Below are positions 2,945 through 26,218 of a stretch of DNA of 47,091 nt, in pieces (positions within the stretch are counted from its first letter, which is position 1; each line of letters opens with the position of its first letter). A program made the position numbers and the translations under genes. Source of the DNA: a virus. Location: IMG/VR virus record IMGVR_UViG_3300017783_000045, positions 1-47,091 of that record. One strand, 5' to 3'. Below the pieces are notes generated by a model. The model did no database searches and was not told the DNA's origin. It saw only the letters and a program-made list of their open reading frames with translations.

Positions 2945-2988
2945 TATTATTAAAAAGGCAATCCACTACCTAAACATCGGAGAATAAA

Positions 2989-3672: not shown

Positions 3673-3679
3673 GAGTTTT

Positions 3680-6614: not shown

Positions 6615-6615
6615 T
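6586..6615 (+). promoter_or_regulatory. Consensus sigma70-type promoter for queE
   Basis: TTGACA (6586-6591) and TATAAT (6610-6615) are both perfect hexamers separated by 18 nt. Transcription would start at about 6619-6622, at or a few bases before the queE ATG (6622). A transcript from here would therefore be leaderless or nearly so. The GAAGG ribosome site (6605-6609) would be present only in read-through mRNA. Confidence 0.68.
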
Positions 6616-6621
6616 AGTAAT

Positions 6622-7563
6622 ATGAATGATAAAATACAGACTCTTGCACAGCACGACTTTAGTAAAACAGTAGAAAAAAAGTTTTACTATTCAGAGATAT
6701 TTTATAGTATTCAAGGTGAAGGGCATTACACAGGTGTTCCGACAGCTTGGATTAGATTCTTCTTGTGCAATTTACAATGTAATGGGTTTGGTCAATTAGA
6801 TCCAACTAATCCAGATACACATGAATTGCCTTTTGAAGACTTTGATGTTGACAGTGTAAAACGTGTTGAAGACTTGCCTGTATGGGATAAAGGCTGTGAT
6901 AGCAGTTATACATGGGCTAAGAAATTTAAGAAACTAATGGGTCAAGAAACTCCTACTGCTATGGCAAATAAGATTGTCGACTGTATTAAGAATGATAGCA
7001 ATCCAGAAGGTAAGTTTTTACATCCTGTAAGTAAACAAAATCAACACTTGTGTTTTACAGGTGGAGAACCTTTGATGGTTACAGGACAACAGGCAGTGGT
7101 AGGTATATATAACGAATTAAAAAAGCAGGGCAATTTGCCTGGTAGCATGACATTTGAAACTAACGGTACACAAAAACTTAGAGAACCATTCTTAGAATGG
7201 GCTAAGAGCATTGACACAGAAATATTTTTCAGTTGTAGTCCCAAACTATTTACTGTATCAGGTGAAAAACCTGAAAAGGCCATTAAGCCTGAGATAGTTG
7301 CTGAATACTTACAAGCATCTACAAAAGGACAACTTAAATTTGTTGTAGGTCCATTACAACGTGAATGGGATGAAATGGAAGAGACAGTTGAAAAATTTAG
7401 AAGTGCTGGTGTTGATTGGCCAGTATGGATTATGCCAACAGGAGCAAGAGAAGAAGAACAAACCGCAACTGCTGGTTCAGTTGCACAAAAGGCATTTCAG
7501 AGAGGATACAATGTAGCGGCAAGAGTACATGTATACTTGTTTGGTAATGCTATTGGAACTTAG
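6622..7563 (+). CDS. queE: 7-carboxy-7-deazaguanine synthase (QueE), radical SAM, phage type
   Basis: QueE rearranges 6-carboxytetrahydropterin to 7-carboxy-7-deazaguanine using an iron-sulphur cluster and S-adenosylmethionine. The 313-residue protein has the family opening FYSIQGEGHYTGVPTAWIRF, cysteines C49 and C53 (C-N-L-Q-C), and FTGGEPLM at about 135-142. The third cluster cysteine seems to be C92 in GCDSSYTW, which matches the WCDTKHTW block of E. coli QueE. This gives C-x3-C-x38-C, with an insertion inside the usual motif. The ATG at 6622 is chosen over an upstream in-frame codon at 6586 because the latter lies in the preceding gene. It acts with FolE and the QueD-like protein. Confidence 0.93.
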   Translation: MNDKIQTLAQHDFSKTVEKKFYYSEIFYSIQGEGHYTGVPTAWIRFFLCNLQCNGFGQLDPTNPDTHELPFEDFDVDSVKRVEDLPVWDKGCDSSYTWAKKFKKLMGQETPTAMANKIVDCIKNDSNPEGKFLHPVSKQNQHLCFTGGEPLMVTGQQAVVGIYNELKKQGNLPGSMTFETNGTQKLREPFLEWAKSIDTEIFFSCSPKLFTVSGEKPEKAIKPEIVAEYLQASTKGQLKFVVGPLQREWDEMEETVEKFRSAGVDWPVWIMPTGAREEEQTATAGSVAQKAFQRGYNVAARVHVYLFGNAIGT

Positions 7564-11934: not shown

Positions 11935-11967
11935 GGGAGTTAGTAGAAATACTAACTCTCTTTTTTT
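11935..11967 (+). terminator. Intrinsic terminator between convergent arms
   Basis: GAGTTAGTA (11937-11945) pairs perfectly with TACTAACTC (11950-11958) around a GAAA loop. G35-C60 and a G-U pair can extend it. Seven T residues follow (11961-11967). It should terminate the rightward + strand operon. The T run overlaps the last codon of the opposing dehydrogenase gene; no matching U tract exists for the - strand. Confidence 0.87.
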
Positions 11968-13147
11968 ATCTTGTATTTCCGTAATGAATAACTTCGTGTT
12001 TATCTGAAGTGTAAGAACGCCAAGGATCAACTACAACGGAGTCGTCTGATAGTTCTACATAAAGCTCTGGATGAGATAAAAGAACACATGCTCTAAAAGG
12101 TCCTGGATCAGAACCATATACTAACGGATCAACTTGCATAGGATTAAAGCCGTACTCTGTACAATACTGTGCAACTAGTAAAGCATAACTTCCATCGATA
12201 TAAGGCACGCCTGGTTTGTAAGCAATACCGTTAATAAGAATAGGAAGTTCTTTTTCTTTTGCAATATCACAAAGTTTCTGTGCAACATTTTGCGCCTGCA
12301 CTTCTCTAGCATTCATTACTGCATCAAAAATATCATAACCAAGATCTAGTTTCTTTGCCATATACCTAAGTGCAATATTATCTCTTGGGTGACAACTGCC
12401 GCCATCTCCCATTCCTGCTTTCATGTAACTTGGTCCCATTATACGTTGTGTACTTTCTGCAAGTGCTGTAGTAACTACATCAACGTTTATATTACCTTGC
12501 TTTTCAGCAACGTCTTGTATCATATTTACAAGTCCAATCTTTGTACTAATAAATGTATTATAGAATACTTTGATACATTCGCATTCGTCCCAAGTACCAA
12601 TTACATATCTTGGATCATTCTCCATGCATGTATCATAAAAATCTCTAAGCTCTTTAGCATCGCCGGTTTCAGTACCATCTTCTGTACCAATCATAACCAT
12701 TTCAGGATTGACCATGTCCCAAGCAACTGTACCCATAGCAATTAAATAAGGATTATAAACAAAACGTGTGTTAGTTATTAAAGGTACAAACTCACGTCTT
12801 ACTGTTCCAGGTAAAACTGTACTAATAAGAACAAGCATTTGTTTTTTATTCATATACTTGTTTGCTTCTTGTAAACAATCAATAACAATATCGTATTGAA
12901 AGTCTTTAGGCTCTAAATGTGCTGTAGGTGCTTTGCCGTCATAGTTTGGATCATGTGGAGTAGGCACTGCAACAAATACAATATCTGCTTCTGATGCTAC
13001 GTCTTTAATAGTATCTTCTACAATAACATAGTCGCTATTCAATGATTTATCTACATCATATCCTAATACAGCATGTCCTTTTTTAGCAATTTCTTCTGCG
13101 CAGGGCATACCCAATTTGCCAAGTCCAATAAATCCAATTTTCATCAA
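11966..13147 (-). CDS. UDP-glucose/GDP-mannose 6-dehydrogenase family enzyme
   Basis: The family oxidises a nucleotide sugar to its uronic acid with NAD. The 393-residue protein starts MMKIGFIGLGKLGMP, a Rossmann NAD site with G-x-G-x-x-G at residues 8-13. It has NPYLIAMGT at about 132-140, ECIKVFYN with the conserved Lys near 203, the catalytic Cys252 in GGSCHPRD, and INGIAYKPG near 315-323. After the last motif the usual D-x-R-x-S block reads VPYIDGS, without the Arg, so substrate or regulation may differ. Its terminator-proximal position at the end of a sugar-gene run fits supply of an activated uronic acid to the glycosyltransferases. Confidence 0.88.
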   Translation of the reverse strand: MMKIGFIGLGKLGMPCAEEIAKKGHAVLGYDVDKSLNSDYVIVEDTIKDVASEADIVFVAVPTPHDPNYDGKAPTAHLEPKDFQYDIVIDCLQEANKYMNKKQMLVLISTVLPGTVRREFVPLITNTRFVYNPYLIAMGTVAWDMVNPEMVMIGTEDGTETGDAKELRDFYDTCMENDPRYVIGTWDECECIKVFYNTFISTKIGLVNMIQDVAEKQGNINVDVVTTALAESTQRIMGPSYMKAGMGDGGSCHPRDNIALRYMAKKLDLGYDIFDAVMNAREVQAQNVAQKLCDIAKEKELPILINGIAYKPGVPYIDGSYALLVAQYCTEYGFNPMQVDPLVYGSDPGPFRACVLLSHPELYVELSDDSVVVDPWRSYTSDKHEVIHYGNTR

Positions 13148-13286: not shown

Positions 13287-14432
13287 CTAATTCATAGGCT
13301 TTATTAAGTAGTTTCTCCCTTTTAAAACCCTATAATTATATTGTGCAATCTCACGTACTTTGGCATGCCAATTTCTAAACTCTGATCCTTTTAAATTACA
13401 CAATCTTTCAATTTCATTTACAATTGCTATTGCCCTATCTCCGTGGTCTTCAATTTTATCGTAATCTTCATTTATGTAAGGATGATAAGTTCTGTACCCT
13501 AATTCTTTAAGATACTGTAATGTGTTTGGAGAACCTATCAAAACAAATGGGTGTCCCATTGCAATACATTTAAATATTTTTTCACTTAGAAACGGAACAT
13601 TTTCGTAGAATGTTGTTTCGCTAATTACACTAAAATATGTTTCTTGATAATACTTGTGTATTGATTGTTGATGTTCTGCTCTATTAGTAACAAGGTCTTG
13701 TTCATCAAGATACATTGACGGCAACTGCTGTACATCAGCAGAACGTTTTAAAACACGAGAAATCTCTTTATGATCTTTGTGTTTTGTTTGTAGCCTATTC
13801 CATACTTTCTTCCAATCTAAATTATCGTCTGATGGTGCAAGACTAACATATCCATCATCTAATAATCCTCTATCATATAGTAATGTAACCATTAACGGCC
13901 TATGTAAGCGCCATCGTCTATTTAGATTAAGATATTTTTTAGAGTACTTGCGTTTCTTTTCCATTGTAGGAAAAGCACTACGTTGTAGTATTGTATCTCT
14001 ACCAGTGTTTTCAAATAAACTGAACCACATAATTTTAATAGGCTCCACATTATTTTTCTTACAATAACTTAATGTGTATTTGTACATAGTAGGTACACCA
14101 GATAGAAACACAACCTGACTTGTTGGTATGTCATATTTTTGTATAATATCATTATAAATGGCATCTAAACTGTCATAAAAGAACTCTAACGAGTTGTCTA
14201 GTACTAATGAAATCTGTTTAAGTTGTAATTTAAGAATCGTTTCTTGATCTAAAATCGTATCTAAAGGAAAATATTTAAAACTTCTTGCGTCGGAAAACAT
14301 TATAAAATAGTAATCTTGTTTTAATTTAAGACGTCCTATTTCAGCAGGATTTGTAGGTATAGTAACCTTCACAGGATTGTTAACATCATATGTTATAAGG
14401 TATGGTAAATTATCGTTATTCAAACAAGCCAT
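13287..14432 (-). CDS. Putative glycosyltransferase, paralog of the 15210-16448 gene
   Basis: The 381-residue protein shares a C-terminal block with the gene at 15210-16448. Both have an E-T-x-F-(Y/F) segment, then F-L-(S/T)-E-K-(I/L)-F-K, then G-H-P-F, then T-L-x-x-L-(K/R)-x-L-G-(Y/F). The order resembles the donor-binding half of fucosyltransferase-like GT-B enzymes (E-K-x-F...G-x-P), but homology to a named family is not certain. The N-terminal half differs. No signal peptide is present. A highly basic stretch MEKKRKYSKKYLNLNRRWRL lies near residue 155. It overlaps the SGNH-like gene upstream by 1 nt. Confidence 0.6.
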   Translation of the reverse strand: MACLNNDNLPYLITYDVNNPVKVTIPTNPAEIGRLKLKQDYYFIMFSDARSFKYFPLDTILDQETILKLQLKQISLVLDNSLEFFYDSLDAIYNDIIQKYDIPTSQVVFLSGVPTMYKYTLSYCKKNNVEPIKIMWFSLFENTGRDTILQRSAFPTMEKKRKYSKKYLNLNRRWRLHRPLMVTLLYDRGLLDDGYVSLAPSDDNLDWKKVWNRLQTKHKDHKEISRVLKRSADVQQLPSMYLDEQDLVTNRAEHQQSIHKYYQETYFSVISETTFYENVPFLSEKIFKCIAMGHPFVLIGSPNTLQYLKELGYRTYHPYINEDYDKIEDHGDRAIAIVNEIERLCNLKGSEFRNWHAKVREIAQYNYRVLKGRNYLIKPMN

Positions 14433-15223
14433 TATAATCGTCCTGGTTTGTTAGAATGTTCTTTCCACCAAACTTCTAAATCGTCAAAACTACTTGCTTT
14501 CAGTACTTTTTTATTTGTGCTAAGAGCAAACTCTCTCATGTCTTTTGATATTAAATGTTTAGGAAAGCATTTAGCAATATATTTTAAATGATGTTCAGGT
14601 CTAGGATGATAATCAGCAGTTTGGCCTTGTCCTTTAGAACCTTTTATAGGTGTTGTTGGCCAAGAGCCGTCAAAAATTGCTGTAAGAATATCTGGTTGCA
14701 TTGATTCAAGTGTTGTAGCATATACTCTTTTAATATCTCCGTAGTCGCTATTTTTCATTTCTGGAGTTAAATTAAATGAGATCATATCATCGATTTCAAA
14801 AGGAGCCATGTTCAACATATGAAATTCAGCTTTTGATTGTTTCATGTAGTGTCTTGTTAATTCTATAAGTGCTAAATCTCTTAATAGATAAAATCTATAA
14901 TCAAACCAATCATGTACAAACTTGGCAGAGATATTATTTTGTGTTGTAATATTCCCCGATGTTACCCAATGATTTTTCTTATATCTATCTTCACGTGTAA
15001 CTGAGCTCCACATAACAATAACCAAATCATTTTTATTAAAGTTATGTGTTAAATTTGCTTCTACTAGTTGATTAGAAATGTAAAGATTTCCTGCGCCAGA
15101 CTTTCCGTAGTTATGTGTTTCTGGTATATCTTGTTTGATGATGTCCGACCATGTTGGCCATCTATATCTGGTTAAACTGCAACCAAATGTAAAACATCTT
15201 TTATATTCACTAAACCGTTTCAA
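14432..15223 (-). CDS. SGNH/GDSL hydrolase-like protein
   Basis: The 263-residue protein opens with RCFTFGCSLTRYRWPTW, an SGNH block I with G-x-S giving candidate nucleophile Ser16. NYGKSGAGN at 38-46 supplies the block II/III Gly and Asn. ADYHPRPEHHLKY gives Asp204 and His206, the block V D-x-x-H-like pair with D-x-H spacing. Such enzymes remove or add acyl groups on glycans. It overlaps glycosyltransferase-like genes on both sides, which fits sugar acyl trimming. It lacks a signal peptide, so it would act in the cytoplasm. Activity is inferred from motif order only. Confidence 0.75.
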   Translation of the reverse strand: MKRFSEYKRCFTFGCSLTRYRWPTWSDIIKQDIPETHNYGKSGAGNLYISNQLVEANLTHNFNKNDLVIVMWSSVTREDRYKKNHWVTSGNITTQNNISAKFVHDWFDYRFYLLRDLALIELTRHYMKQSKAEFHMLNMAPFEIDDMISFNLTPEMKNSDYGDIKRVYATTLESMQPDILTAIFDGSWPTTPIKGSKGQGQTADYHPRPEHHLKYIAKCFPKHLISKDMREFALSTNKKVLKASSFDDLEVWWKEHSNKPGRL

Positions 15224-16448
15224 AGTATCTCTCCGCTGATTTTATACAATTAGTTATTGCATCTTTATAAAAGTCTTGTGTTCTTGCATGTTCAAAGTTA
15301 TGTTGTACAGCAGGATATGCATATAGTAAACGTCTTTGCTTAGTTTTAAAATCAAGACTGATCCACTCTTTTAAATTTTGTTGTACAGTGTTAAAACGTT
15401 CTAATGGATCTACAATTAAGTCGTAGGGCTTACTAAACAATTTAAAGTCTGTTTTAAATCCTAATGAACGTAAACCAGCAAGTGTTCCTCTTGATGCAAT
15501 TGTAATAAAAGGATGTCCAAGCATAATAGGTTTAAACAATTTTTCTGTTAAAAATACGCTGTCGTCAAAGAATATAGTTTCAGTTACAACTGTTAGTAAC
15601 GTGTTTGCATATAGTTCTGCATTAAAACTATTAGCAGCGTTTGTAACACTCCAGTCTCCATCAAAAAATCTTGGAGTAAACTCTTTGTGTCTTGCGTAAT
15701 TTTCTTTACCAATCAAGTATTCTGCATTTAGATCTTCGCCTTCTTTAACTTCGTTACATGTAACAATACCTTTGTCTAATAGTCCACTAATGCCTAAGTC
15801 TGTTACGTGTGCAGCTCTATGCGGTCTATGCACCCTATTTAAACTATTAAATGCTTTACTATCTTCGTTGTACATTGCACCTTTAATTAACGGCTTGTAA
15901 GGCATAGATTGATTCATAAATATTTTTAAGAAGTGATTTGAATATGCAACTTCAAACATACGTGCATTGCCTGTTTTCTCTAACCAATCTTCGTAATGCT
16001 TTTCTACCAATTGGCTCCCTTGCATAATATAAACAGACATTGGTGGTAGTTCTCTTTTAATTGCAGCATCATGTATACGCTGCCAGCCATCACCTAATGA
16101 TTTGTGTATAAAGGGGCCTCCTTCTTTGTCAGCACCAATTACAAGTCTTAATCTTTTTTTCTTTACTAGTTTTACAATATTCTTTGGTAATGCAGTTATA
16201 ATGTCTGTCGGTCCGTTGTGTACAGAGCTAAGTCCTGTCCACCAACAAGGATCACCATTAACATCAATATAATATATGCCAGGCGAATTTTGACAGTTTC
16301 CTAACTCTTGCACAGGCTTCTTCATACTGCGTAAAGTTTGTTTAACAATAGATCCTTTAGAAGTTAGATACCAATCAGTTTCATCTGTAGTAGAAAGATG
16401 AGCTAAATTTTCTGTATGTTCGTCTGTGGTATCAAAGTAAAAATTCAT
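15210..16448 (-). CDS. Putative glycosyltransferase, paralog of the 13287-14432 gene
   Basis: The 412-residue protein has the shared block VTETIFFDDSVFLTEKLFK, then GHPFITIASRGTLAGLRSLG, near residues 285-335. This block is aligned with its paralog two genes away. The N-terminal half (STDETDWYLTSKGSIV, PGIYYIDVNGDPCWWTG, RLVIGADKEGGPF) is its own. The conserved Glu-Lys and Gly-His-Pro positions are consistent with a nucleotide-sugar site. Duplication around an SGNH-like gene suggests two linkage-specific enzymes. Start overlaps the stop of the radical-SAM gene (ATG/TAA region). Confidence 0.6.
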   Translation of the reverse strand: MNFYFDTTDEHTENLAHLSTTDETDWYLTSKGSIVKQTLRSMKKPVQELGNCQNSPGIYYIDVNGDPCWWTGLSSVHNGPTDIITALPKNIVKLVKKKRLRLVIGADKEGGPFIHKSLGDGWQRIHDAAIKRELPPMSVYIMQGSQLVEKHYEDWLEKTGNARMFEVAYSNHFLKIFMNQSMPYKPLIKGAMYNEDSKAFNSLNRVHRPHRAAHVTDLGISGLLDKGIVTCNEVKEGEDLNAEYLIGKENYARHKEFTPRFFDGDWSVTNAANSFNAELYANTLLTVVTETIFFDDSVFLTEKLFKPIMLGHPFITIASRGTLAGLRSLGFKTDFKLFSKPYDLIVDPLERFNTVQQNLKEWISLDFKTKQRRLLYAYPAVQHNFEHARTQDFYKDAITNCIKSAERYFETV

Positions 16449-17644
16449 TAAGTTAACCTTTTCAATTCTGGAAATGTTTCTGCAAAGTTTTCATTTCTAA
16501 TTATATCATAATGATGTGTACGGTTTTTAAATTGTTGTTTTGTTTTCTCATTAAACTTAGAACTGTTTATATAACTTACAACACCCTTTAGCATATCATC
16601 AATATGCTTATTATATTTTTTACCTTGTATCTTTTCAATAATTTCTGTTTTAAATGAATCATCTAATACTGATGCAGTATAATATTCTGGATATTGTATA
16701 TTATACATCTGTGGGAAATAATCTTCAAGATCAAAAAATCCTTCATTCAATACATAATCAAAAAAGTCTGTTATTGTATATAAATTAAAAACACTAACAA
16801 CTGTATTGCTTTGCATCTTAATATGAGGACATTCTTGTTTTATTTTTTTAATATTACCTTTAACCAAATTCCAGTCTGTTCCTGATCTAATATACTCTGC
16901 TCTACTACCATAATGATCTAAACTTGCACCTATGTGTATAGTATCAAAGTGTTTCCATAGCTCTAAGACGCTCTTAGACTTGTATTTTAGCACACTACAG
17001 TTACTATTATACTCTAACTTCACATTTGTTTTACCTATTGAAATAAGGTGTTCTAGTATGTCATAATGCTTGTCTGTGAGCAAAGGTTCTCCGCCTGCAA
17101 AGTAAAATGTTTCAATATCCTTAAAGTGCGGAAGGAACTGGTTATACAACTTATCGTTGTCATTACCATCTGCTAAAATAAAAATAGGTTTCTTTTCACC
17201 TTGTGCATTATCTTCTTGCGCCCATGTGCTAGAGTATGTGCTACTACAACTTCGGCATTTAAAGTTACAAATATTACTCCAACGCACATCAAAATGTTTT
17301 AGATGCATTACTGGTAATGTACCATCAGCTTCTGTATGTGCTATTAGACCAGCAGTATCACCAAAGTATGGATTACGATTAGCATGTGTTCTTGAGCTTT
17401 CGGCTCCACCATCTTCTATATTATAACAGGCTTGACATTCTACACAACGTTTACCCTCAAGCATATTTTTACGTATTTTCTTGTAGGGGTTGTCATTCCA
17501 AATTTCTTTAATTGTGTTTTGTCTTACATTACCTAAGGGCTTGTCCCACTCACCAACACAACAAGGTAACACCGACCCGTCTGGGTTTACATACATATGT
17601 AACCAAGGGTATATGCAAAACGTATCAGACAGCTTCGCAGTCAT
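16448..17644 (-). CDS. Radical SAM protein with extra cysteine region (SPASM/twitch-like), first of a tandem pair
   Basis: The 398-residue protein has the radical SAM cluster motif C126-x3-C130-x2-C133 (NICNFKCRSC) and AGGEPLL at about 173-179. Unusually, the auxiliary cysteines come first: C10 (FCIYPW), C28/C29 (LPCC), then C67, C70 and C73 (C-x2-C-x2-C). The GSVLPCCVGEWDKPLGN opening is the typical SPASM/twitch signature, placed at the N-terminus. Such enzymes modify peptides or carry out carbon-centred chemistry on sugars. It overlaps the second radical SAM gene by 20 nt. The substrate is unknown; glycosyltransferases on both sides suggest a glycan or a modified protein. Confidence 0.86.
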   Translation of the reverse strand: MTAKLSDTFCIYPWLHMYVNPDGSVLPCCVGEWDKPLGNVRQNTIKEIWNDNPYKKIRKNMLEGKRCVECQACYNIEDGGAESSRTHANRNPYFGDTAGLIAHTEADGTLPVMHLKHFDVRWSNICNFKCRSCSSTYSSTWAQEDNAQGEKKPIFILADGNDNDKLYNQFLPHFKDIETFYFAGGEPLLTDKHYDILEHLISIGKTNVKLEYNSNCSVLKYKSKSVLELWKHFDTIHIGASLDHYGSRAEYIRSGTDWNLVKGNIKKIKQECPHIKMQSNTVVSVFNLYTITDFFDYVLNEGFFDLEDYFPQMYNIQYPEYYTASVLDDSFKTEIIEKIQGKKYNKHIDDMLKGVVSYINSSKFNEKTKQQFKNRTHHYDIIRNENFAETFPELKRLT

Positions 17645-18992
17645 GGTAGAAGTCCTTTAGATCTGGAAACGTATCAGTAAAGTTAACATTTCTGCGTTTA
17701 TCATATTCAGTAAACCACTGATAAAAATCTCTACGGCCTTCTGTCAATCTGTTGACATCATACTGTGTTCTTTCCATATAGTCTACTACACGTCTAAACT
17801 TTTCATATTCTAGTTCGCTAAATTTATGCTTATCTTGGTCGTCCATATTATCAATAATAAACTGTAAGTGTTTCTTCATGTATGGCATAAACATTTCTTT
17901 AGGTAAGATATTCATATCATACTGTAAAGGTTCTTTTAGGTACGGAGTATCAAATCTAATTCTCTGCCATTTAGTTTGATTATCGCTATTATATTTTATA
18001 CGCCAGTCTAAGAACTTTTGCAATAGTGTACTAAAATTAGTTACAGTTAAAATATTAAACGTAACCATAAATGTTAAAGGCATGTTAGTCTTGGTCATGT
18101 AAGTGTCTAAGTTCTTTTGCCAAAGCTCTAAATCTAAGCCTGTTCTAATATACTCTGCTTGTGGTCCCCATGTATCAATACTAGTAAAAATCTTAAAGTC
18201 TTTGATACAGCCTTTTTCAACTAAACTGTTTACTTTGTCAGTAAACCTTTCAATAAGAATTGGCTTAACACCTAAATTAGTATTGATGTTTAATTCTAAA
18301 TTAGGACAAGGATTTTTTTCAAGCTCGTCAAATACTCTCCATGTGCTTTGCTGTAGTAATGGCTCACCTCCTGTAATACGTAAAATTGTAAGTGTCTTAC
18401 GCAATTCAGGCCACCACTTCCACCATGCTTTAACATATGGATTTGTTTCTTCATCTTTGTGTATTTTAAACCAGTCAATATCATTCCTATGATTCTTAAC
18501 CATAGTGTATGGACCTTCTTTTTCAATTTCTTTATAGTAACTGCTAGAATGTTTAGGGTGGCAATATCCGCATTTAAAATTACACTCATTACCGAATGAA
18601 ACTTCAACATACTGTGGATTTACATTTGCCATCGGCTCTTGCTTAATTGCATTGAATCTTTCAGGTGTGTATATACTTGCATTACGTTCTTTACGATCAC
18701 TAATGTAATCTTTACCCATACATTCAACATTCCAACAATAGTTACAACCGCTAGGTTTCTTGCCGTCTATCATCATTTGACGTTCTGCTTTTTTCTGTTG
18801 TGTGTTGTGTAACGCACTTGGATCTGCTTCAATTTCATGCAAAGGTATTTTATGCGGAGCAGGGTGATAACAACTGTGTGTTTCTCCTGTACCTAAGTAT
18901 AGTGTTGTATGATGCCATTTGGCCAAACAGAATGTAGGACTTAGCTCGTCCATGATAGGAATAAACTTTTCTATTCTTTCCTTATCGTGCAT
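17625..18992 (-). CDS. Radical SAM protein with extra cysteines, second of a tandem pair
   Basis: The 455-residue protein has the cluster motif C137-x3-C141-x2-C144 (NECNFKCGYC) and RITGGEPLLQQ with GGEP at about 208-211. Additional cysteines precede it: C22 (FCLAKW), C41 and C83, C86, C91 (GCNYCWNVEC). The layout matches the neighbouring radical SAM protein, but overall sequence differs, so this is an old duplication or a matched pair. EYIRTG occurs in both (residues about 260 and 290). No precursor peptide ORF was found beside the pair. It overlaps the repeat-containing gene upstream by 11 nt. Confidence 0.86.
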   Translation of the reverse strand: MHDKERIEKFIPIMDELSPTFCLAKWHHTTLYLGTGETHSCYHPAPHKIPLHEIEADPSALHNTQQKKAERQMMIDGKKPSGCNYCWNVECMGKDYISDRKERNASIYTPERFNAIKQEPMANVNPQYVEVSFGNECNFKCGYCHPKHSSSYYKEIEKEGPYTMVKNHRNDIDWFKIHKDEETNPYVKAWWKWWPELRKTLTILRITGGEPLLQQSTWRVFDELEKNPCPNLELNINTNLGVKPILIERFTDKVNSLVEKGCIKDFKIFTSIDTWGPQAEYIRTGLDLELWQKNLDTYMTKTNMPLTFMVTFNILTVTNFSTLLQKFLDWRIKYNSDNQTKWQRIRFDTPYLKEPLQYDMNILPKEMFMPYMKKHLQFIIDNMDDQDKHKFSELEYEKFRRVVDYMERTQYDVNRLTEGRRDFYQWFTEYDKRRNVNFTDTFPDLKDFYHDCEAV

Positions 18993-20619
18993 TAAACTGT
19001 TCCTTTAACCAATCAAAGTCATTTATTTTACGTAGGTTATCTGGCTTGTTACTGTTTGCAACTCCGTAAGCTCTGCCTGCTTTTGCTCCTTTAAGTGCAT
19101 ACTCTGCAAAAGGTCCTTTTGCTTCTTTACACCAAATATCTAAACGTTTATCAGTTTCCATGTTATCTTGTCTATTAATAGCTCTACTTGCTAGTTTAAC
19201 ACATTCTCTAAATGAACTTTTCCATGTACTGTATTCATCGGTATCAAACACACTAATGTTACTTACTTCATTCATAGCTTTAAACTTTGAAGATAGACTA
19301 GTAGTCATATCAGTAGTAAAATCTGTAATGTTCATAACTGCTTTTCTTGGTAGTAATTTTACACCACCGTAACCATATTCTAGATCATTTACTGCATTTT
19401 TACTTCGCCAAACATGTACCATATCTTGATCCCAAAACGGAACACGATGATCAAATTTAAAATGTTCAATTAGTTTAGCATCACCGTCAACTACCCAAAA
19501 CATATCTGTTTCACATAGTCTTGCTGCTTCCATATGTGCTTGATGAATACCTTTTACATCACGTATCCAACGTAGTTTTACACTAGAGTCTTGTACTCTT
19601 ACAATGTCTTGTAGTTCTTTGAAATGCTTATCTGCATTTTTTTCTTTATAACTTATAAAAGCAATATCATATGACGTCGGCCTACTACTATTTTGTTTTA
19701 CATCTTTTTTATTTGTAAAGAATCTTGAATTAAATTCACGCTGTGTTACAGGACGCTCTTTTGAAAATAATGTAACACCGTCATACCATTTGCTATTTTG
19801 AAAACAGTGAGTAAGTTTTCTATGATAACTATCGTACTTAGGAATATAATAATCAAATTTAAAACTATCAATAATATTTAGATCAGGATATACTCCCCAA
19901 AACATATCTCCTGTTGCTTTTTCTTGAGCTTGTTTATAATCGTCAAACGTTTCTAAATTAAATACTTCCCACTTCTTAGGATTACTGGCTACTACGTTAA
20001 CTTCTTTTTTATTTGTAAAGAATCTATAATCAAATTCTCGTTTAGCAATTTTATTATTTTTATGGCAAATAAAAATACCATCGTAAGTTTTATCATTTTT
20101 AAAAACATGAACAACATCTTTATCCCAAGCAGGAACTTGATATTGAGGAATGTCTGTTGGAACTACATCATCAGGTATACATAGTATAAACTCTGAATGT
20201 GCAATTTCTTGTGCTGTAACAAGTCCTTCGTAACTGTCTAGTTTAATAATATCGTAAGGTTTAGGACGACTTGCTAGTATATCAATTTCTTTTTTATTTG
20301 TAAAGAATCTATACTTCCATTCTTTGCTCGATACGTTTAAGTTTTTAGGAAATAAGCATACACCATCATAGTGTTCGCCATTTTTAAATACATGAATATA
20401 TTGATTGTCCCATTCAGTAAGTCTGTATGTAAAATCAAAGTCTTGTGTTATATGTAAACAATCCCATACTACCCAAAAGTTTTTTGTAAGAGTCTTTTTA
20501 TTAAGTGTTTCATAGCTTTCACAGTTTTCTATTTTCTGTGCGTGTGGAAAACGTGACTTGAAATTATTCCAAGAACTTACGTTAACCTTAGAATCACTAA
20601 TAAAAAAGATATCATACAT
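18982..20619 (-). CDS. Glycosyltransferase-like protein with three degenerate internal repeats
   Basis: The 545-residue protein holds three degenerate repeats of about 95-100 residues, each containing W-x-x-x-x-(I/V)-H-V-F-K-N, Y-D-G-(V/I) and then R-F-F-T-N-K-K (residues about 104-110, 199-205, 299-305). A final, better preserved GT-A-like domain begins near 317 (YDIAFISY) and has VVDGDAKL at about 376-383 as a D-x-D-type metal motif, followed by GYGGVKLLPRKAV. The last domain resembles the adjacent protein (20612-21517). The first three copies lack an obvious D-x-D (VVWDCLH, CIPDDVV, GVYPDLN), so they may be non-catalytic binding modules. Confidence 0.7.
   Translation of the reverse strand: MYDIFFISDSKVNVSSWNNFKSRFPHAQKIENCESYETLNKKTLTKNFWVVWDCLHITQDFDFTYRLTEWDNQYIHVFKNGEHYDGVCLFPKNLNVSSKEWKYRFFTNKKEIDILASRPKPYDIIKLDSYEGLVTAQEIAHSEFILCIPDDVVPTDIPQYQVPAWDKDVVHVFKNDKTYDGIFICHKNNKIAKREFDYRFFTNKKEVNVVASNPKKWEVFNLETFDDYKQAQEKATGDMFWGVYPDLNIIDSFKFDYYIPKYDSYHRKLTHCFQNSKWYDGVTLFSKERPVTQREFNSRFFTNKKDVKQNSSRPTSYDIAFISYKEKNADKHFKELQDIVRVQDSSVKLRWIRDVKGIHQAHMEAARLCETDMFWVVDGDAKLIEHFKFDHRVPFWDQDMVHVWRSKNAVNDLEYGYGGVKLLPRKAVMNITDFTTDMTTSLSSKFKAMNEVSNISVFDTDEYSTWKSSFRECVKLASRAINRQDNMETDKRLDIWCKEAKGPFAEYALKGAKAGRAYGVANSNKPDNLRKINDFDWLKEQFNAR
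19706..20310 (-). repeat. Three near-identical DNA repeats encoding RFFTNKK
   Basis: TTTTTTATTTGTAAAGAATC occurs three times on the + strand, near 19707, 20007 and 20290. The copies are about 285-300 nt apart and lie inside the repeat-containing glycosyltransferase-like gene. Identity at this level over 20 nt while the flanking repeat sequence has diverged points to strong constraint or recent recombination. Confidence 0.8.
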
Positions 20620-21517
20620 ATTTTTTACTATAGTAGGTTTGTCCTAGGTTCAATGCTTCGTCATATAGATCCATTGTATACCTACTTGCATCAGGTTCTA
20701 GCCACACCCAATCAAGACCTAGGTTTAATTTAATTTCGTCTCCTAGACGTTGTATTTCAGCAATACACGCTTCACTATCTTTTGAAAAATGCTCTGCTTT
20801 ATCTTTATATATTTCGCCCAACATTTCAAAATCTCTAACTTGTATATGATCCCAGTCTGTACAATTAGTCATATAGGTTCCTTGCCTTGCACCTAGTATT
20901 GACATTATACCATTTTCTACATGTGATCCAACCGTTGACCACATTCTAAGTCTGTGAATATTATGCCACCAAATTCTTTCTTTAATTTCCATAGGTGGTA
21001 GTTTTAGACCATCAAACAATGTCATTTTAACACCTTCTCGAAATCCTGATCTCCATGCATGATATGGATTGCCATTTATTTTTGTGTCGCTATAAGTTAC
21101 TGGAAAGTTTCTATAACCTGTTTCCCAACAAAAGTCAACTTGCGCTCTTTCGCTATCTGCATTTTCATGTGTTTTCATATTAAGTAAATGATCCTTAGAC
21201 CATAACTTTAATCCGCCGTTACCGTAACGTAATCCGTTAACAGTATTCTTACCACACCAACTATATACTTTAACTTCTTCTTCTGACATATCTAAGTCAA
21301 GATTAAAATATTCAGGATATACTATATTGTCTGCATCAACGGTAAGTAACCAATCAGTTTCAGATTGTTCTGCACATGCTTTATGTGCATGATCACTTCC
21401 TTTTACACCATGTACACGTTTAGCCCATGGTAACTTATTGCATAGATCTGCATAATGCAAATCAGCAAAAGGTTCATCATAAGATAAAAAGAATACGTCG
21501 AATTCAGCAACCCGCAT
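20612..21517 (-). CDS. GT-A-type glycosyltransferase-like protein
   Basis: The 301-residue protein starts VAEFDVFFLSYDEPFADLHY and has WLLTVDADNIVYP at about 57-69, a D-x-D-like motif for a metal-bound nucleotide sugar. NGLRYGNGGLKLWSKDHLL follows, which parallels the last domain of the gene downstream. A C-terminal part begins with AWRSGFREGVKMTLF. The pair are clearly related in this 100-residue core. It overlaps the downstream gene by 8 nt and abuts the upstream one. It is cytoplasmic, and the acceptor is unknown. Confidence 0.75.
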   Translation of the reverse strand: MRVAEFDVFFLSYDEPFADLHYADLCNKLPWAKRVHGVKGSDHAHKACAEQSETDWLLTVDADNIVYPEYFNLDLDMSEEEVKVYSWCGKNTVNGLRYGNGGLKLWSKDHLLNMKTHENADSERAQVDFCWETGYRNFPVTYSDTKINGNPYHAWRSGFREGVKMTLFDGLKLPPMEIKERIWWHNIHRLRMWSTVGSHVENGIMSILGARQGTYMTNCTDWDHIQVRDFEMLGEIYKDKAEHFSKDSEACIAEIQRLGDEIKLNLGLDWVWLEPDASRYTMDLYDEALNLGQTYYSKKYV

Positions 21518-22168
21518 TTAGATCTCCTCTAGTACATAGTTTTTAAACAGTCTACGAGTAAACACACTAAACTTTCCTGTAATGTCTACATCGTCAATTG
21601 TTACAGACTTACCTTCTAACTCTTCAAGTGTAACATCAAAAGTTTTTTGCGGAAAGTGTGGATCATTATAATCAGCAACTGTAAAAGATAAAGTTGTTTC
21701 ACCTCCCCAAAATATATTTCTTGGTGTTGCTGGTTGCCACTGTTTTTCTAAAACTCTTGTACCACCATACTCTTCGCTTAGTTCAACTGTAAGTTTTTTG
21801 GCAGCTAAGTCATATGTAAGATAGATGTCTGGTTTTACCTCTTCATCTAAATAACGCTTATCAATAATCCTATGTAGTACGTCATCAATTTTTGATAAGG
21901 TTTTTTCTTCTGTAATTTCAAACTTACCTTCATGAGTATCAAAAAAGCACTTACTGATATGGATGTCACCGTCAATAATTTTGATAGCAAGATCTTCGTC
22001 AATCTCAACAACGTTTTTGCTGTACTCCATTTCTATTGCCGAATACGGACCTACTGAAACCAGTTGTCCTGTATCTGGGTCAAATGCTGTACCAAATCTA
22101 CGTGCTGGTTCTTCATAATTTTTAAGCCACTCATCAAAGTCGGGCATAAATTCTTCTACTTCTTCCAT
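21518..22168 (-). CDS. Unknown acidic beta-rich protein in the glycosyltransferase island
   Basis: The 216-residue protein has an acidic start (MEEVEEFMPDFDEWLKNYEEP). A series of beta-like stretches follows (NVVEIDEDLAIKIIDGDIHIS, IYLTYDLAAKKLTVELSEE, ETTLSFTVADY, SVTIDDVDITGKFSVFTRRLF). This pattern may be a small virion or binding domain. It overlaps the glycosyltransferase upstream by 13 nt, and its downstream neighbour starts immediately. I recognise no family, and the coupling with GT genes is the only hint to its job. Confidence 0.68.
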   Translation of the reverse strand: MEEVEEFMPDFDEWLKNYEEPARRFGTAFDPDTGQLVSVGPYSAIEMEYSKNVVEIDEDLAIKIIDGDIHISKCFFDTHEGKFEITEEKTLSKIDDVLHRIIDKRYLDEEVKPDIYLTYDLAAKKLTVELSEEYGGTRVLEKQWQPATPRNIFWGGETTLSFTVADYNDPHFPQKTFDVTLEELEGKSVTIDDVDITGKFSVFTRRLFKNYVLEEI

Positions 22169-22995
22169 GCTATTTCCTCCAGTACATTAATTGTTTCTAA
22201 ATTCATTTTATCTTTTTCAACATAATGTACAATGTCGTTTTGTTGATAACTACCTATTTTTAATTTGCCTTTATCATTTAAGTAATATCCTACATGATCT
22301 GAAAACTTATCAGCATGCCATGGCCAATTTTGTACACCGCCTTTCATATGTACAACTCTTGGAAATCCTAACGGGTATGCAATATCGTCTGTGATATCTA
22401 ATATCTTTGCTGCTATTGCAAATGCTTCATCAGTTCCTATAACTTTAGGTGTATGCTTTGTTAAAAACAAATTAGTGTATTCATTTGGATTGTCCATTAT
22501 AGAACGCTGTAAATTAAAGAAGTCATTTGCTAGTTTACTATCTTTTTTAAAGAATGTAAAGAATGAATATAAGTTTGGTAATTCATTTTTAGTAAATGTT
22601 CTTCTATAAAAATCATTAGTTACTACTTCTCCTCTATATGTGTATGCTTTGTTAGCAACATACAGTTCAGAATTTGCAACAAAATAATCAATCCAATGAC
22701 TGTAATCTCTAAAGAACAACATGTCTGCATCTAAACATACAGTGTGTTCCCACGGTGTTAGCTCGTCCATATAAGAACGGCCGTCCCAAAAACCTTTCTT
22801 GTCCCATTCAATAATCTCATCAAAGACCCAAGTAGATTCAAAATTTTCTATTTGAGTTTTATCATCAATTACTAATGCAACTTTATCGTAACCTTCTTTT
22901 TGTGTATTCTTAATACTTAATGCAAGAGCATATGCCATTTGTGCATAATTGTATTCTTCAGAAGTTGCAACAACAATTAGATATCCAAAGTTCAT
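22156..22995 (-). CDS. GT8-like glycosyltransferase
   Basis: The 279-residue protein opens GYLIVVATSEEYNYAQMAYALALSIKNT, a common GT8 (glycogenin-like) start. It has the D-x-D motif in HTVCLDADMLFF at about residues 86-97 and a late IGTDEAFAIAAKILD. VHMKGGVQNWPWH near residue 220 resembles the H-x-x-G...K/P-W end of the family. No membrane segment is seen. The gene overlaps its paralog upstream by 4 nt (ATGA). The acceptor and sugar are unknown. Confidence 0.78.
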   Translation of the reverse strand: MNFGYLIVVATSEEYNYAQMAYALALSIKNTQKEGYDKVALVIDDKTQIENFESTWVFDEIIEWDKKGFWDGRSYMDELTPWEHTVCLDADMLFFRDYSHWIDYFVANSELYVANKAYTYRGEVVTNDFYRRTFTKNELPNLYSFFTFFKKDSKLANDFFNLQRSIMDNPNEYTNLFLTKHTPKVIGTDEAFAIAAKILDITDDIAYPLGFPRVVHMKGGVQNWPWHADKFSDHVGYYLNDKGKLKIGSYQQNDIVHYVEKDKMNLETINVLEEIAWKK

Positions 22996-23840
22996 ATCAA
23001 CTCCATTAGTTTGTCAAAGTTTCTTTCAATGCTTTTTTTATTCATTACATGAACATCTTTGCCTGATGACGAAGCAACTAGTTCTTCATTAGTTAATAAA
23101 AATTGTAATGTGTTACTTTTTACATCAACTAACATATCTCTATCTATTGTAGAAAACACTGACGGTAATTTATATTCTGTATCTGCTTCTTGAAATCCAT
23201 TTAGTATATGATTAGCTATTGCAAAACTAATATCGTTCCTATATAGTCTAGGATCAAAACGATATGTGTCTGCAAAGAACTTGTAATTTTTTTGTATGTA
23301 TTGTACTAAATCAAAAAGTACTTTTGTTTGATCGTTCTTGGTAAACATAACTGTTGTAGCCCAAAGCAATTTAACGCCAGTATCCGAAACATACTTGTCA
23401 TGGTAACCTGCTCGTGTTCCCATAATATCATTATACTCATGTGATATTAAGAAGTCTTGTTCGACATCCCAATAACTGTTCAAAGTATCTGAAAATGTTA
23501 GATAGTCACAATCTAACAATAATGTTCTTTCATAAGGTGTAATATCCCAAACATTTGGTCTGTTTGAATTATCGAAAGGTACTGCTTCAAAATCATTTCC
23601 ATCATGAAGATTTCTGTATTGCTGTGTTGGAGGACGCTCTACAAAAATAAGGCTGTCAAAGATTTCTTTTGCTTTATCTGCAGTACCTATTTCTTCCATA
23701 TAATCAACAGTTGACTTATCTGTGATTAATGAAACTGGATAGCCGAGATGCTTTTTAGCAAGGCCGCCTGCGACCAATGCTAGTTTAGAATAGTCTAAAC
23801 TTCGACTGTTATGTGCAAATATTACGATTCCTTTATCCAT
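22992..23840 (-). CDS. GT8-like glycosyltransferase, paralog of the previous gene
   Basis: The 282-residue protein opens GIVIFAHNSRSLDYSKLALVAGGLAKK. It carries a D-x-D element in RTLLLDCDYLTF at about 109-120, in the place matching the neighbour's LDADMLFF. YRNDISFAIANHILNG near 215-230 matches the neighbour's DEAFAIA segment. The end is VMNKKSIERNFDK rather than the neighbour's W-P-W-H motif, so the donor or acceptor side may differ. It follows the 23842-24192 gene by 1 nt in the same direction, so the island may be read from the late promoter at 24222. Confidence 0.78.
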   Translation of the reverse strand: MDKGIVIFAHNSRSLDYSKLALVAGGLAKKHLGYPVSLITDKSTVDYMEEIGTADKAKEIFDSLIFVERPPTQQYRNLHDGNDFEAVPFDNSNRPNVWDITPYERTLLLDCDYLTFSDTLNSYWDVEQDFLISHEYNDIMGTRAGYHDKYVSDTGVKLLWATTVMFTKNDQTKVLFDLVQYIQKNYKFFADTYRFDPRLYRNDISFAIANHILNGFQEADTEYKLPSVFSTIDRDMLVDVKSNTLQFLLTNEELVASSSGKDVHVMNKKSIERNFDKLMELI

Positions 23841-23841
23841 A

Positions 23842-24192
23842 TTATACTTCTATAAGTTTTTCTACGGATCTGCTCTTTTTGAGCTTCTGGTATTCTTCGT
23901 AATATTCTAATGTTGATGTTGTGTATCTATCAAGTATGATATCTTTAAAATCTGCAAGATTTTCAATCAATATAGGATTATCATTAACATCAAGTAATAC
24001 TACTCCTTCGGTTCTATCTACTGAAAGTAGCATTTGAACGAAGTTAATTAGTTCTCTATTGATCTTAAATATGCCGCCATTAACACCGTATGTTAATCTA
24101 GCATCAATTTTTTCCTTTAGAGTTTTACGCTGTACAGCAAAAGTTTCTCTATACTTGCTAAAATCCAAGGCTTTTTTTAGTTGTTCTTCCAT
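23842..24192 (-). CDS. Conserved T4-like marine phage protein of unknown function
   Basis: This 116-residue protein has GGAGGA directly upstream of its ATG. It has RLTYGVNGGIFKINRELINFVQMLL and VVLLDVNDNPILIENLADFKDII, then a helix with Y-x-E-x-x-K-L-K-K-S-R-S-V-E-K-L. I recall this pattern from T4-like cyanophages, near structural genes, without a known function. It is the first gene read from the octamer at 24222-24229 and may be a virion or assembly factor. Confidence 0.78.
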   Translation of the reverse strand: MEEQLKKALDFSKYRETFAVQRKTLKEKIDARLTYGVNGGIFKINRELINFVQMLLSVDRTEGVVLLDVNDNPILIENLADFKDIILDRYTTSTLEYYEEYQKLKKSRSVEKLIEV

Positions 24193-24251: not shown

Positions 24252-25277
24252 TTAACTGACTGTGAATCCGCCCACTGTTACAGATGGCGTTTCAATACTA
24301 AATGATTGTGATCCTGTGGGGTAAAGATTAATGGTACCAACTGCTTTTCTAGTAACAGTTTGGAGATAAAGTGAAGCAGGTCCTACTAAATCAGGTCCAT
24401 AAGTACCTGGTCCTTGTTGCGGAGTACCTGATGTTGACGGTCCGCCTAATCCAACGTGATCGTCATTGTAAACTGCTGCCATTTCTAGTTGATATGCACT
24501 ACCACTTGAGTTATCTAATACCGCAGGTGTTCTTGCATATAATCTATAATAGTTTGCATTGTAAGGACTACTAGCAACAGCTTGGTACCAAGGTGTGCTA
24601 TAAACGTTTGTACATCTATAAAAGTTTCCATTATCATTAGGATTAACACCCGTTGCTGGTTGTTGTCCTCCAAATGTCTGTGTACTTGCTGTCTGTAGTA
24701 AACTTCTCCAAGAAGCGTCTTGGGCTGAACCGCTAATACTGCTCAAACTGCTTGTAAGTTGAATTTGTCCACCACTATTAAAATAGTGCCTAGCGGCTAA
24801 TGCTGATGACCATGTAAAAGTAACTAATACTTGAGCAGAAGTTGACCATGATCCTGTATATACTGCATTACTGTGTGTTGTAGATGATGCTACTGATGCT
24901 GGTGGTATGGTATATTTTGCAGCCTCTAGTGCAATAATTAAATCATTCCATCTTCTGTAAGGCTGTGTATTGTATGTTGCATCATTAGTAAGAGTATTTG
25001 CTTTAATTTTTTGAGAAGTACTAATGTTATTAGGCCAACTTCCCCAATTAGTAGGAGGATTTGAACCATATATATGCCTGTAAGCATTATACATGTCTGT
25101 AATTAACCTACCGTATTCTTCTACAGATACTTTGTCCGAAACACCAACACCTGATGCATTCATTGTTTGGCCCCAACCATATAATACTGTGCCGTCAGCA
25201 AGGCCCACCACTTGCTCAAGGCGAGTGTATAATGCATTGTAGTCGTTTCTACTAATTGTTGCGTGTACGGTCGTCAT
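24252..25277 (-). CDS. Virion/adhesin-like protein, paralog of the 25316-26218 gene
   Basis: The 341-residue protein shares its architecture with the upstream gene: an early VLYGWGQTMNASGV (GYGQSVNSS in the paralog), then a SLTSAW or TGSWSTSAQVLVTFTWSSALAARHYFNSGG-type block, then PYNANYYRLYAR. The Ser/Thr/Gly-rich composition and lack of enzyme motifs suggest a receptor-binding or decoration protein. The end is GTINLYPTGSQSFSIETPSVT. Function is inferred from position beside fibre genes and from composition. Confidence 0.7.
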   Translation of the reverse strand: MTTVHATISRNDYNALYTRLEQVVGLADGTVLYGWGQTMNASGVGVSDKVSVEEYGRLITDMYNAYRHIYGSNPPTNWGSWPNNISTSQKIKANTLTNDATYNTQPYRRWNDLIIALEAAKYTIPPASVASSTTHSNAVYTGSWSTSAQVLVTFTWSSALAARHYFNSGGQIQLTSSLSSISGSAQDASWRSLLQTASTQTFGGQQPATGVNPNDNGNFYRCTNVYSTPWYQAVASSPYNANYYRLYARTPAVLDNSSGSAYQLEMAAVYNDDHVGLGGPSTSGTPQQGPGTYGPDLVGPASLYLQTVTRKAVGTINLYPTGSQSFSIETPSVTVGGFTVS

Positions 25278-25296
25278 ATAATATCCTTAACAGCAG

Positions 25297-25304
25297 TATT
25301 TACT
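25297..25304 (-). promoter_or_regulatory. Weak late-promoter-like octamer
   Basis: AGTAAATA on the - strand has two mismatches from TATAAATA. It lies 19 nt before the 25277 start, with AAGGA in between. It is the weakest of the set and is kept because position and ribosome site fit. Confidence 0.3.
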
Positions 25305-25315
25305 ACAACAAGTGT

Positions 25316-26218
25316 CTATGTTGCACTAATGCTGGTTCCAGAATACGATGGACTCGTAATAGAAAATGCAGCACCACTTGGTTGTAATGTTCCTGTAGCT
25401 TTTAATTCTTCTACATCAATACTAAGTGTGCCGTCAACTTGATCGCCTGGCGCTGGTGCACCTGGATCAACGTAACTGTCAGTCAATAAAACCTTAAAGT
25501 TAAATACTGCGGCTGTTCCTGCGGAGTTACTTGCCACATCACACTTGCCTTGAATCTTGTAATTGTTTGCTGAATATGGCGTACTAGCAGATAAATTATA
25601 TAAATCTTGGTATACATTTGTAAGCATGTATATATTATTCAGCCCGTCTGGTAATCTTCCGCCGATTACTTGTCTACCCACAGTTGAAAGTAAACTAGTC
25701 CATGCACCGTTTTGTGCTGTTGCTGATCCTAGTCCTCTTCCTGTAGTAAATCTTAGTCTACTTCCAGAGTTCCAAAAATACCTTGCGTCGTTAGCATTAC
25801 TAAATGTTACGGTTATAACATATTCTGCATTTGTACTCCAAGCAGATGTATAGCTTTTTGAATCTTTAACTGATGCTGTTAGTAAACCAGCATCGCAGTC
25901 AAATCTATCATTTCGACATTCGTCAGCAAGTGTGTTGTATCCGTTAAAAGGATCACTTGATGATGCTGTAATAGGATCTCCAATAGCAGCAATAGTTGCT
26001 GTTGGTACTACACCGTTCTGATGAAAATAAGCATTTACAATGTCAAACCGGATTGCATCAAAGTGTGACTTTAATACTGTTTGACCAGAAATAACTGTTG
26101 AGCTGTTAACTGATTGTCCATATCCGAATGTACCAACACCGGTACCCATGACTTCAGCAATTTTGTTTCGCAGGCTGTTGAGGTCTGTTGATAGGATCTG
26201 TGCGCCTGTTGTTACCAT
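25316..26218 (-). CDS. Virion/adhesin-like protein, paralog of the 24252-25277 gene
   Basis: The 300-residue protein has GTGVGTFGYGQSVNSSTVIS, then AYFHQNGVVPTATIAAIGDP, then a core SYTSAWSTNAEYVITVTFSNANDARYFWNSGSRLRF. This core aligns with the paralog downstream. The C-terminus has GTLSIDVEELKATGTLQPSG. It is low in charged residues and rich in Ser, Thr and Asn, as usual for phage tail decoration proteins. The stop of the fibre gene upstream overlaps its start by 1 nt. Confidence 0.7.
   Translation of the reverse strand: MVTTGAQILSTDLNSLRNKIAEVMGTGVGTFGYGQSVNSSTVISGQTVLKSHFDAIRFDIVNAYFHQNGVVPTATIAAIGDPITASSSDPFNGYNTLADECRNDRFDCDAGLLTASVKDSKSYTSAWSTNAEYVITVTFSNANDARYFWNSGSRLRFTTGRGLGSATAQNGAWTSLLSTVGRQVIGGRLPDGLNNIYMLTNVYQDLYNLSASTPYSANNYKIQGKCDVASNSAGTAAVFNFKVLLTDSYVDPGAPAPGDQVDGTLSIDVEELKATGTLQPSGAAFSITSPSYSGTSISAT

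Follow-up and report, generated by a model that had tools for sequence, protein, structure and literature searches.

Two N-twitch radical SAM enzymes in the fiber-side island of an uncultured virus and their probable place in a glycan-tailoring module

The window analyzed here is the entire 47,091-base IMG/VR virus record IMGVR_UViG_3300017783_000045, a genome fragment of a marine virus in which two genes for radical S-adenosylmethionine (SAM) enzymes, rSAM1 and rSAM2, stand side by side in a minus-strand run. The run consists of long open reading frames (ORFs) that extend from a 3676-residue structural protein down to position 11966, and the plus-strand genes reach it at 11.9 kb. The minus-strand order is fibers, p300/p341, p116, GTc, GTd, p216, p301, rep545, rSAM1, rSAM2, GTa, an SGNH-like gene, GTb and UGD (GT, glycosyltransferase). 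The block is thereby located after the fiber genes, with the radical SAM pair amid GT-like genes, a weakly SGNH-like gene and UGD, and all genes between 13287 and 24192 abut or overlap.

The gene rSAM1 (17625..18992, minus strand, as are all island genes given below) encodes 455 amino acids, and rSAM2 (16448..17644) encodes 398. Both products belong to the NCBIfam family NF033640 (N_Twi_rSAM, twitch domain-containing radical SAM protein), with scores of 319 and 388 bits, respectively, against a curated cut-off of 170 bits, and the matches cover positions 1-398 and 1-397 of the 398-position profile. They are paralogues of each other (phmmer E-values of 3.9e-18 and 3.4e-19), and carry the CX3CX2C motifs CNFKCRSC and CNFKCGYC, with the auxiliary cysteines N-terminal to the core. 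This triad and four other cysteines (C10, C29, C70 and C73 of rSAM2) were invariant in 22 aligned sequences, the window pair included. In rSAM2, the SPASM domain PF13186 was found at residues 10-73 (3.8e-16) and PF04055 at residues 123-274; the auxiliary domain precedes the core, unlike in canonical radical SAM enzymes, where the SPASM or twitch domain is C-terminal. A preliminary description, made from the DNA letters, of a tandem radical SAM pair with auxiliary cysteines ahead of the core was thus borne out, both by the ORFs and by the family scores. In a tree of 48 rows, rSAM1 and rSAM2 each formed one clade; the branches were long and the deep order among the bacterial rows was not resolved.

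The predicted model of rSAM2 (pLDDT 84.8) has the radical SAM fold, and its structural neighbors were BlsE, anSME, DesII, SkfB, CteB, viperin and MoaA, which were tied at Z scores of 9.7-10.6 and were covered mainly in the core. Since viperins were the best matches in both the Foldseek and the PDB sequence searches, and the viperin profile NF038283 scored 39.4 bits for rSAM2 and 20.3 bits for rSAM1, a viperin-like radical chemistry on nucleotides, or a role in counter-defense, was considered. However, both scores are far below the cut-off of 180, the window enzymes possess an extra N-terminal cysteine domain, and the GT context described below is recurrent, all of which makes this explanation highly improbable. 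The profiles of NirJ, MoaA and other equivalogs were likewise tried and scored far below their cut-offs. BtrN, the twitch radical SAM dehydrogenase of butirosin, acts on an aminocyclitol. When a profile of the 22 sequences was searched against solved proteins, its core aligned with viperin (3e-7), and its N-terminal domain aligned with the C-terminal twitch of BtrN (1e-5); the domain order is therefore permuted relative to the latter. The twitch cysteines also match those of BtrN, save for a one-residue ambiguity at C28/C29, but the window enzymes have the twitch first, and the core alignment with BtrN is marginal.

Downstream of the pair, GTa (15210..16448; 412 amino acids) is a GT-B-like glycosyltransferase. 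Its predicted model (pLDDT 84.7) returned 23 Foldseek matches at E <= 0.001, of which the top rows were glycosyltransferases (BshA, GlgM and WaaG), with TMq values of just 0.23-0.46, and a GT-B fold can be assigned to GTa on this model. GTb (13287..14432; 381 amino acids) is its paralogue (phmmer 1.7e-20), as had been read from the sequence earlier; PDB sequence searches with the profiles of the two found nothing significant. Between them lies the gene for the SGNH-like protein (14432..15223; 263 amino acids), in which the alignment revealed conserved GCS and DYHP blocks. This protein matched a bacterial GDSL profile weakly (hhalign probability 56.7, E 1e-4) and no Pfam family, and the PDB sequence search offered nothing significant (one fatty acid synthase chain at E 0.084), so that its earlier naming is kept here only as putative. 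UGD (11966..13147), which closes the minus-strand run, belongs to the UDP-glucose/GDP-mannose dehydrogenase family: PF03721 and PF00984 scored over and PF03720 under their cut-offs, phrog_9148 was matched at 7.9e-98, and TIGR03026 reached 168.5 bits, below its cut-off of 189.8.

Upstream of the pair, rep545 (18982..20619) has repeated N-terminal modules and no Pfam match, and is related (phmmer 3e-16) to p301 (20612..21517), a conserved protein with an invariant DxD in the alignment and a putative GT-A enzyme. These are followed by p216 (21518..22168), a conserved core-block protein by synteny, with no significant Pfam match; by GTd (22156..22995), GT8-like by its aligned motif LDADMLF and a member of phrog_1903, which has no assigned function; by GTc (22992..23840), also GT8-like by motif; and by p116 (23842..24192), a small protein that is conserved in alignment and precedes GTc. 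The profiles of GTc and GTd align in hhalign with a probability of 96, which makes the two proteins relatives, and a DxD is present in both. Therefore, of the four GT-like genes originally proposed for this side, GTc and GTd gained mutual support, while the label of p301 and rep545 is motif-based, since p301 is unrelated to GTd by profile. Overall, the names of the SGNH-like protein, GTc, GTd, p301 and rep545 remain putative, drawn from motifs, the weak SGNH profile match and the GTc-GTd relation. The upstream flank of the island (24252..27981) comprises p341, p300 and fib587, i.e., two paralogous fiber-side proteins, as determined by sequence comparison, and a fiber with a Peptidase_G2-like C-terminus; PF11962 scored 24.7 bits in this flank, slightly below its cut-off of 25, and there were matches to PHROG tail and head families.

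The same block was then found in related viruses. Two queries gave 184 and 116 relatives, of which the 80 best in each case were retained as the first virus set; this set, being built from the best-scoring 80 per query, is biased to close relatives. Sixteen additional loci, which the contig names assigned to a contig already represented, were dropped from the contig counts, leaving 134 contigs, whereas the identity medians drew on all loci. rSAM1 was present in 132 of the 134. The two enzymes were encoded by separate genes in 86 contigs, adjacent in 59 and with one gene between them in 27, and in all 27 this intervening gene carries the SGNH-like motif GESW-x-YG; in one locus (L079), rSAM1 and rSAM2 are fused in one open frame. 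When only contigs with sufficient flank are considered, p301/rep545 belonged to the locus in 109 of 110 and GTc/GTd did so in 87 of 88; an SGNH-like gene was present in 85 of 102 and a separate rSAM2 gene in 73 of 102. Where the sequence continued for 3 kb or more on the downstream side of rSAM1, a relative of GTa/GTb was present without exception (102 of 102 contigs); hence, a pair standing alone, devoid of GT or SGNH neighbors, was not encountered in this sample. The half of the block up to rSAM1 is near-constant, and the half after it is modular, sometimes inverted or replaced. In the 68 loci with rSAM1 less than 80% identical, the median identity of rSAM1 was the highest of the block at 72%, followed by 68 for UGD, 67 for GTd and 65 for p301, in loci that had been picked by radical SAM similarity. 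The ratio of nonsynonymous to synonymous substitution (dN/dS) of rSAM1 was 0.035-0.086 in five pairs, with dS saturated in some. Single-sequence queries matched an amidinotransferase-like gene in 6 of the 134 contigs, an epimerase in 12 and DegT in none, and two queries for B12-binding radical SAM proteins, which were not summed, matched 14 and 6. It is to be noted that B12-binding radical SAM proteins occur after GTb in some relatives (L059, 14399-16540; L132, 14541-16472), and that the core block of another, L051, contains a DAHP_synth_1 gene (KdsA-like by eye) and a uroporphyrinogen decarboxylase gene, with a HemC-like gene (by eye) further on; the three genes are at 2928-3701, 4696-5637 and 20380-21168.

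A larger form of the block became apparent in more divergent viruses. In a broader profile scan, at least 580 stretches, several of which may share a contig, encoded a relative; the best 80 of these, together with locus L202, made up a second set of 81 loci, in which genes were counted within 8-kb flanks (7 kb for L202) and clusters were named by single-linkage comparison, by profiles built for this analysis and partly by reading the sequences by eye. The characterization of such radical SAM genes as uncommon is thus wrong for uncultured viruses, although isolates hold only distant relatives. Five NF033640-like genes were found in 42 of the 81 loci and six in 25, and in 66 loci five or more of them followed one another with two genes at most separating neighbors. 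Often, the genes are arranged as p300, p116, GTc, GTd, p301, R1, GTb, R1, R2, R2, R2, a protein of about 370 amino acids, and an O-carbamoyltransferase, where R1 and R2 denote radical SAM genes. Relatives of GTa-GTd occurred in 76 loci (78 when p301/rep545 are counted as GTs); by cluster, p301/rep545 were found in 70, GTc/GTd in 56, the carbamoyltransferase in 54 and GTa/GTb in 53. Wherever there was room, fiber or p300/p341 genes lay within three genes upstream of GTc (16 of 16 loci), and p116 directly preceded GTc in 15 of 16. The one carbamoyltransferase scanned holds PF02543/PF16861 and matches NovN, GdmN and TobZ; an amidinotransferase-like gene was present in 18 of the 81 loci, and one member matches AGAT and inosamine-phosphate amidinotransferase. 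Further single-sequence queries found an epimerase in 4 loci and DegT in 10. The cluster of the approximately 370-residue protein (L202, 10692-11804, and 59 more) is present in 60 of the 81 loci, directly after the last radical SAM gene in 52, and the one member scanned had no Pfam match.

The array is ordered at the level of the individual enzymes as well. Across the 41 five-gene loci, 1640 comparisons were made per position; for positions 1-3, the best match of a protein kept to its own array position in 1560-1600 of them, and for positions 4 and 5, which mix, in 1005 and 1112, respectively. In 40 of the 41 arrays, the closest counterpart of rSAM1 was the enzyme at position 1, and that of rSAM2, likewise in 40, was the enzyme at position 3. 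By this resemblance, the window pair looks like a short, two-enzyme form of the conserved array, representing positions 1 and 3, and since the positions are fixed, the array enzymes would appear to carry out distinct steps rather than redundant ones. The CX3CX2C motif was present in 404 of 407 divergent-array proteins and the twitch-like pattern in 403. All 11 divergent records that were tested encode family members, 5-16 per record, and 87 of the 89 matches exceeded the NF033640 cut-off; the record of locus L247 (G929; 346,856 bases) has 16 such matches, in the array and scattered, one of them with an internal TAG. The window enzymes agree with NF033640 in score, profile coverage and placement of the auxiliary cysteines, but a family that had a name without a function is here linked with a gene block that recurs in viruses, and has many more members in the divergent records.

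Bacterial members of the family were also examined for their company. Of the 247 genomes in the class of G001, a Flavobacteriales metagenome-assembled genome, 10 had a match above the NF033640 cut-off; the corresponding figures were 2 of 398 for the phylum of G003, a Rhizobiales one, and 0 of 289 for the class of G003. The neighbors were tallied in 14 loci and amounted to 113 proteins, after 10 of 123 were dropped for being partial, long or of unsuitable size; loci L154, L157, L175, L178 and L184 were excluded. The top Pfam families were Lipase_GDSL_2 (8), epimerase (6), RmlD (5), UbiA (4), Gly_transf_sug (4) and ABC2_membrane (3), the epimerase and RmlD matches overlapping on the same proteins, and none of these six was among the 25 families listed for 95 control proteins from nine regions of the same contigs. 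In locus L190, four NF033640 matches lie in a row, one of them occupying the C-terminal half of a protein that also has ABC_tran and Wzt_C domains; this Wzt-radical SAM fusion adjoins ABC2, RmlD and RmlC genes, with WbsX on the other side. This bacterial ABC-transporter polysaccharide locus resembles the virus block in having radical SAM genes beside sugar genes, but differs in its export genes and in RmlC and RmlD, queries for which matched no virus locus. A carbamoyltransferase adjoins the bacterial member of L177 as it does the virus member of L202.

Among 50,697 phage records searched at E 1e-5, rSAM2 matched only 13 Vibrio phages and rSAM1 matched none. An array member matched two Vibrio phages and one single-cell virus, and p301, p116 and p300 had no match in the isolate search. 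In Vibrio phage K566, four relatives share one stretch with two Glyco_transf_8 genes; an annotated PagP (lipid A acylation) gene (L192, 19984-20433) lies a few genes from this NF033640-related cluster. Scans of viral_contigs found no relative with the L155 and K566 queries, and one with the L176 query.

Radical SAM genes in such phages are already in print. For pelagimyophages, the passages available of PMC7029224 describe a host recognition cluster in which glycosyltransferases, a UDP-glucose 6-dehydrogenase and cassettes with radical SAM genes occur. Like the island of the window, this cluster is a variable fiber-side region with glycosyltransferases; it belongs to T4-like phages of SAR11, the window ends before the far border of its own island, and those passages give no family, order, partners or function for the radical SAM genes. 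Similarly, PMC5332604 presents, in its section 14, one marine T4-like environmental genome with 12 radical SAM genes, comparable in their number within a single genome, but places them under iron-sulfur (Fe-S) metabolism, and that section makes no link to an array, a GT or an SGNH protein. In PMC7150976, genes of both kinds, radical SAM and glycosyltransferase, are listed for marine phages. The grouping of such genes with Fe-S or auxiliary metabolic genes in the latter two papers would agree with their serving host metabolism and playing no part at the virion or the surface; however, the recurrent place after the fiber genes and the ordered core in divergent viruses make this very unlikely. 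The ordered array was not found in the published titles and abstract openings searched, and a search for NF033640 or its short name retrieved no paper.

The observed families, gene order and conservation, the GT-B model of GTa and the polysaccharide setting of several bacterial relatives are the starting point for the following proposal, to which we assign a probability of roughly two in three: the radical SAM pair is part of a virus-borne glycan-tailoring module that acts on saccharides of the virion or the host surface. A saccharide is the most likely substrate because of the GT and SGNH-like company, the carbamoyltransferase beside both L202 and L177, the Wzt fusion and the BtrN-like twitch. 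A virion target is favored over the host surface because the block sits in a run of fiber genes; the product would most likely coat the fiber or neighboring virion proteins, and less likely the host envelope. In such a module, sugar nucleotides would be supplied by UGD here, and by epimerase, DegT aminotransferase or nucleotidyltransferase genes in some relatives, and transferases of GT-A and GT-B type would assemble the saccharide. The N-twitch radical SAM enzymes, each presumably with a core [4Fe-4S]/SAM site and one auxiliary cluster held by the four cysteines, may then perform position-specific radical steps, such as oxidation, dehydration, epimerization or rearrangement, on the sugar nucleotide or on the chain. 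Finally, the SGNH-like proteins may trim or decorate the product, joined in relatives by the O-carbamoyltransferase and the amidinotransferase-like protein.

The initial suggestion had been of a pathway for either an unusual sugar or a modified peptide. In the latter case, twitch/SPASM-type enzymes would alter residues of the fiber or of p300/p341 by epimerization, cross-linking or oxidation, and the GTs would glycosylate the same proteins; the closeness of these genes to GTc in all 16 divergent loci with room, and the peptide enzymes anSME, CteB, SkfB and EpeE among the structural neighbors, are in its favor. The structural resemblance is nonetheless generic, and the auxiliary domain aligns, among solved sequences, with that of BtrN. 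In addition, several bacterial relatives lie in polysaccharide loci and include the Wzt fusion, and the block has no precursor-sized gap between 13287 and 24192. In agreement with the first inspection, no peptide gene was obvious by eye in the end gaps of 139 and 59 bases, 117 small ORFs that overlap genes in other frames being untested. Protein or peptide modification is therefore rather unlikely, and the sugar half of that suggestion is the one strengthened by the block, the GT-B model, the carbamoyltransferase and the bacterial loci.

Several results nevertheless weigh against glycan tailoring. First of all, the structure comparison does not separate enzymes acting on sugars (BlsE, DesII) from those acting on peptides (anSME, SkfB, CteB) or nucleotides (viperin, MoaA). 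Second, neither Pfam nor the PDB sequences offered a significant match to the SGNH-like protein, GTc, GTd or p301, and the profile comparison of p301 with GTd yielded a probability of 1.1, with the alignment limited to the DxD stretch. In the divergent set, SGNH-like genes were counted in 44 of 81 loci, partly from clusters named by eye; the profiles built for this analysis gave 21 when used alone, and the one member scanned fell under both GDSL cut-offs. Third, the counts are of contigs and not of independent lineages. Fourth, queries for AsnB and PhyH, like those for RmlC and RmlD, matched no virus locus, the KdsA-like query matched 1 of 134, and the bacterial control regions held two Glycos_transf_2 and two Glyco_transf_4 proteins, more than listed for the neighbors, as well as three PhyH. 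Lastly, in L155 and L156 the radical SAM gene lies among heme genes, followed by a ChaN-like gene. This arrangement, together with a NirJ2 (TIGR04055) match of 40.6 bits for rSAM2 and with HemE and HemC queries matching 2 and 4 of the 134 virus contigs, would be in line with a NirJ-like tetrapyrrole or heme-related chemistry; however, the NirJ2 cut-off is 500 bits, and the HemE and HemC queries matched none of the other 130 contigs and, within the flanks covered, none of the 81 divergent loci, which renders such chemistry very improbable.

As for the source of the window, its exonuclease is closest, among isolates, to those of PA5oct-like Pseudomonas phages (51%), and its large structural protein to those of Sinorhizobium phage Phosso and PA5oct-like phages (28-30%); the window looks like a piece of a large phage of the T4 superfamily. 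On the plus strand, apart from the island, a QueE-like radical SAM gene (6586-7563; phrog_2076, 3e-52) and a GTP cyclohydrolase I gene (2989-3672) likely belong to a 7-deazaguanine pathway. Also outside the island, the plus-strand ORF at 1904-2944 encodes a 346-residue protein that looks like a GT by eye and has no Pfam or PHROG match. The motif TATAAATA was tried as a late-promoter mark for expression timing and had no match in the window; on both strands, 0 were seen against 7.05 (standard deviation 2.83) expected from shuffles, a possible avoidance.

Beyond the proposed tailoring of glycans, we can tentatively envisage, as a possible but doubtful extension, that in large uncultured phages a line of mostly five or six position-specific N-twitch radical SAM enzymes, with GTs, SGNH-like proteins, often a carbamoyltransferase and sometimes an amidinotransferase-like protein, builds an unprecedented aminocyclitol-like or otherwise highly modified sugar on their own fibers, of which the window would have the two-enzyme version. 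If true, such a fiber sugar would add a new class to the glycans of virions and to the chemistry of the receptor interface. The family NF033640, in any case, gains a strong context from the fiber-side islands in which uncultured phages carry it and from several polysaccharide loci of bacteria, and the ordered five-enzyme array offers defined candidates for new radical SAM chemistry on sugars. If the glycan-tailoring module is real, phages would subject sugars to oxygen-sensitive radical reactions, either where the virion binds its receptor or at the host surface, with a bearing on adsorption, host range and superinfection.

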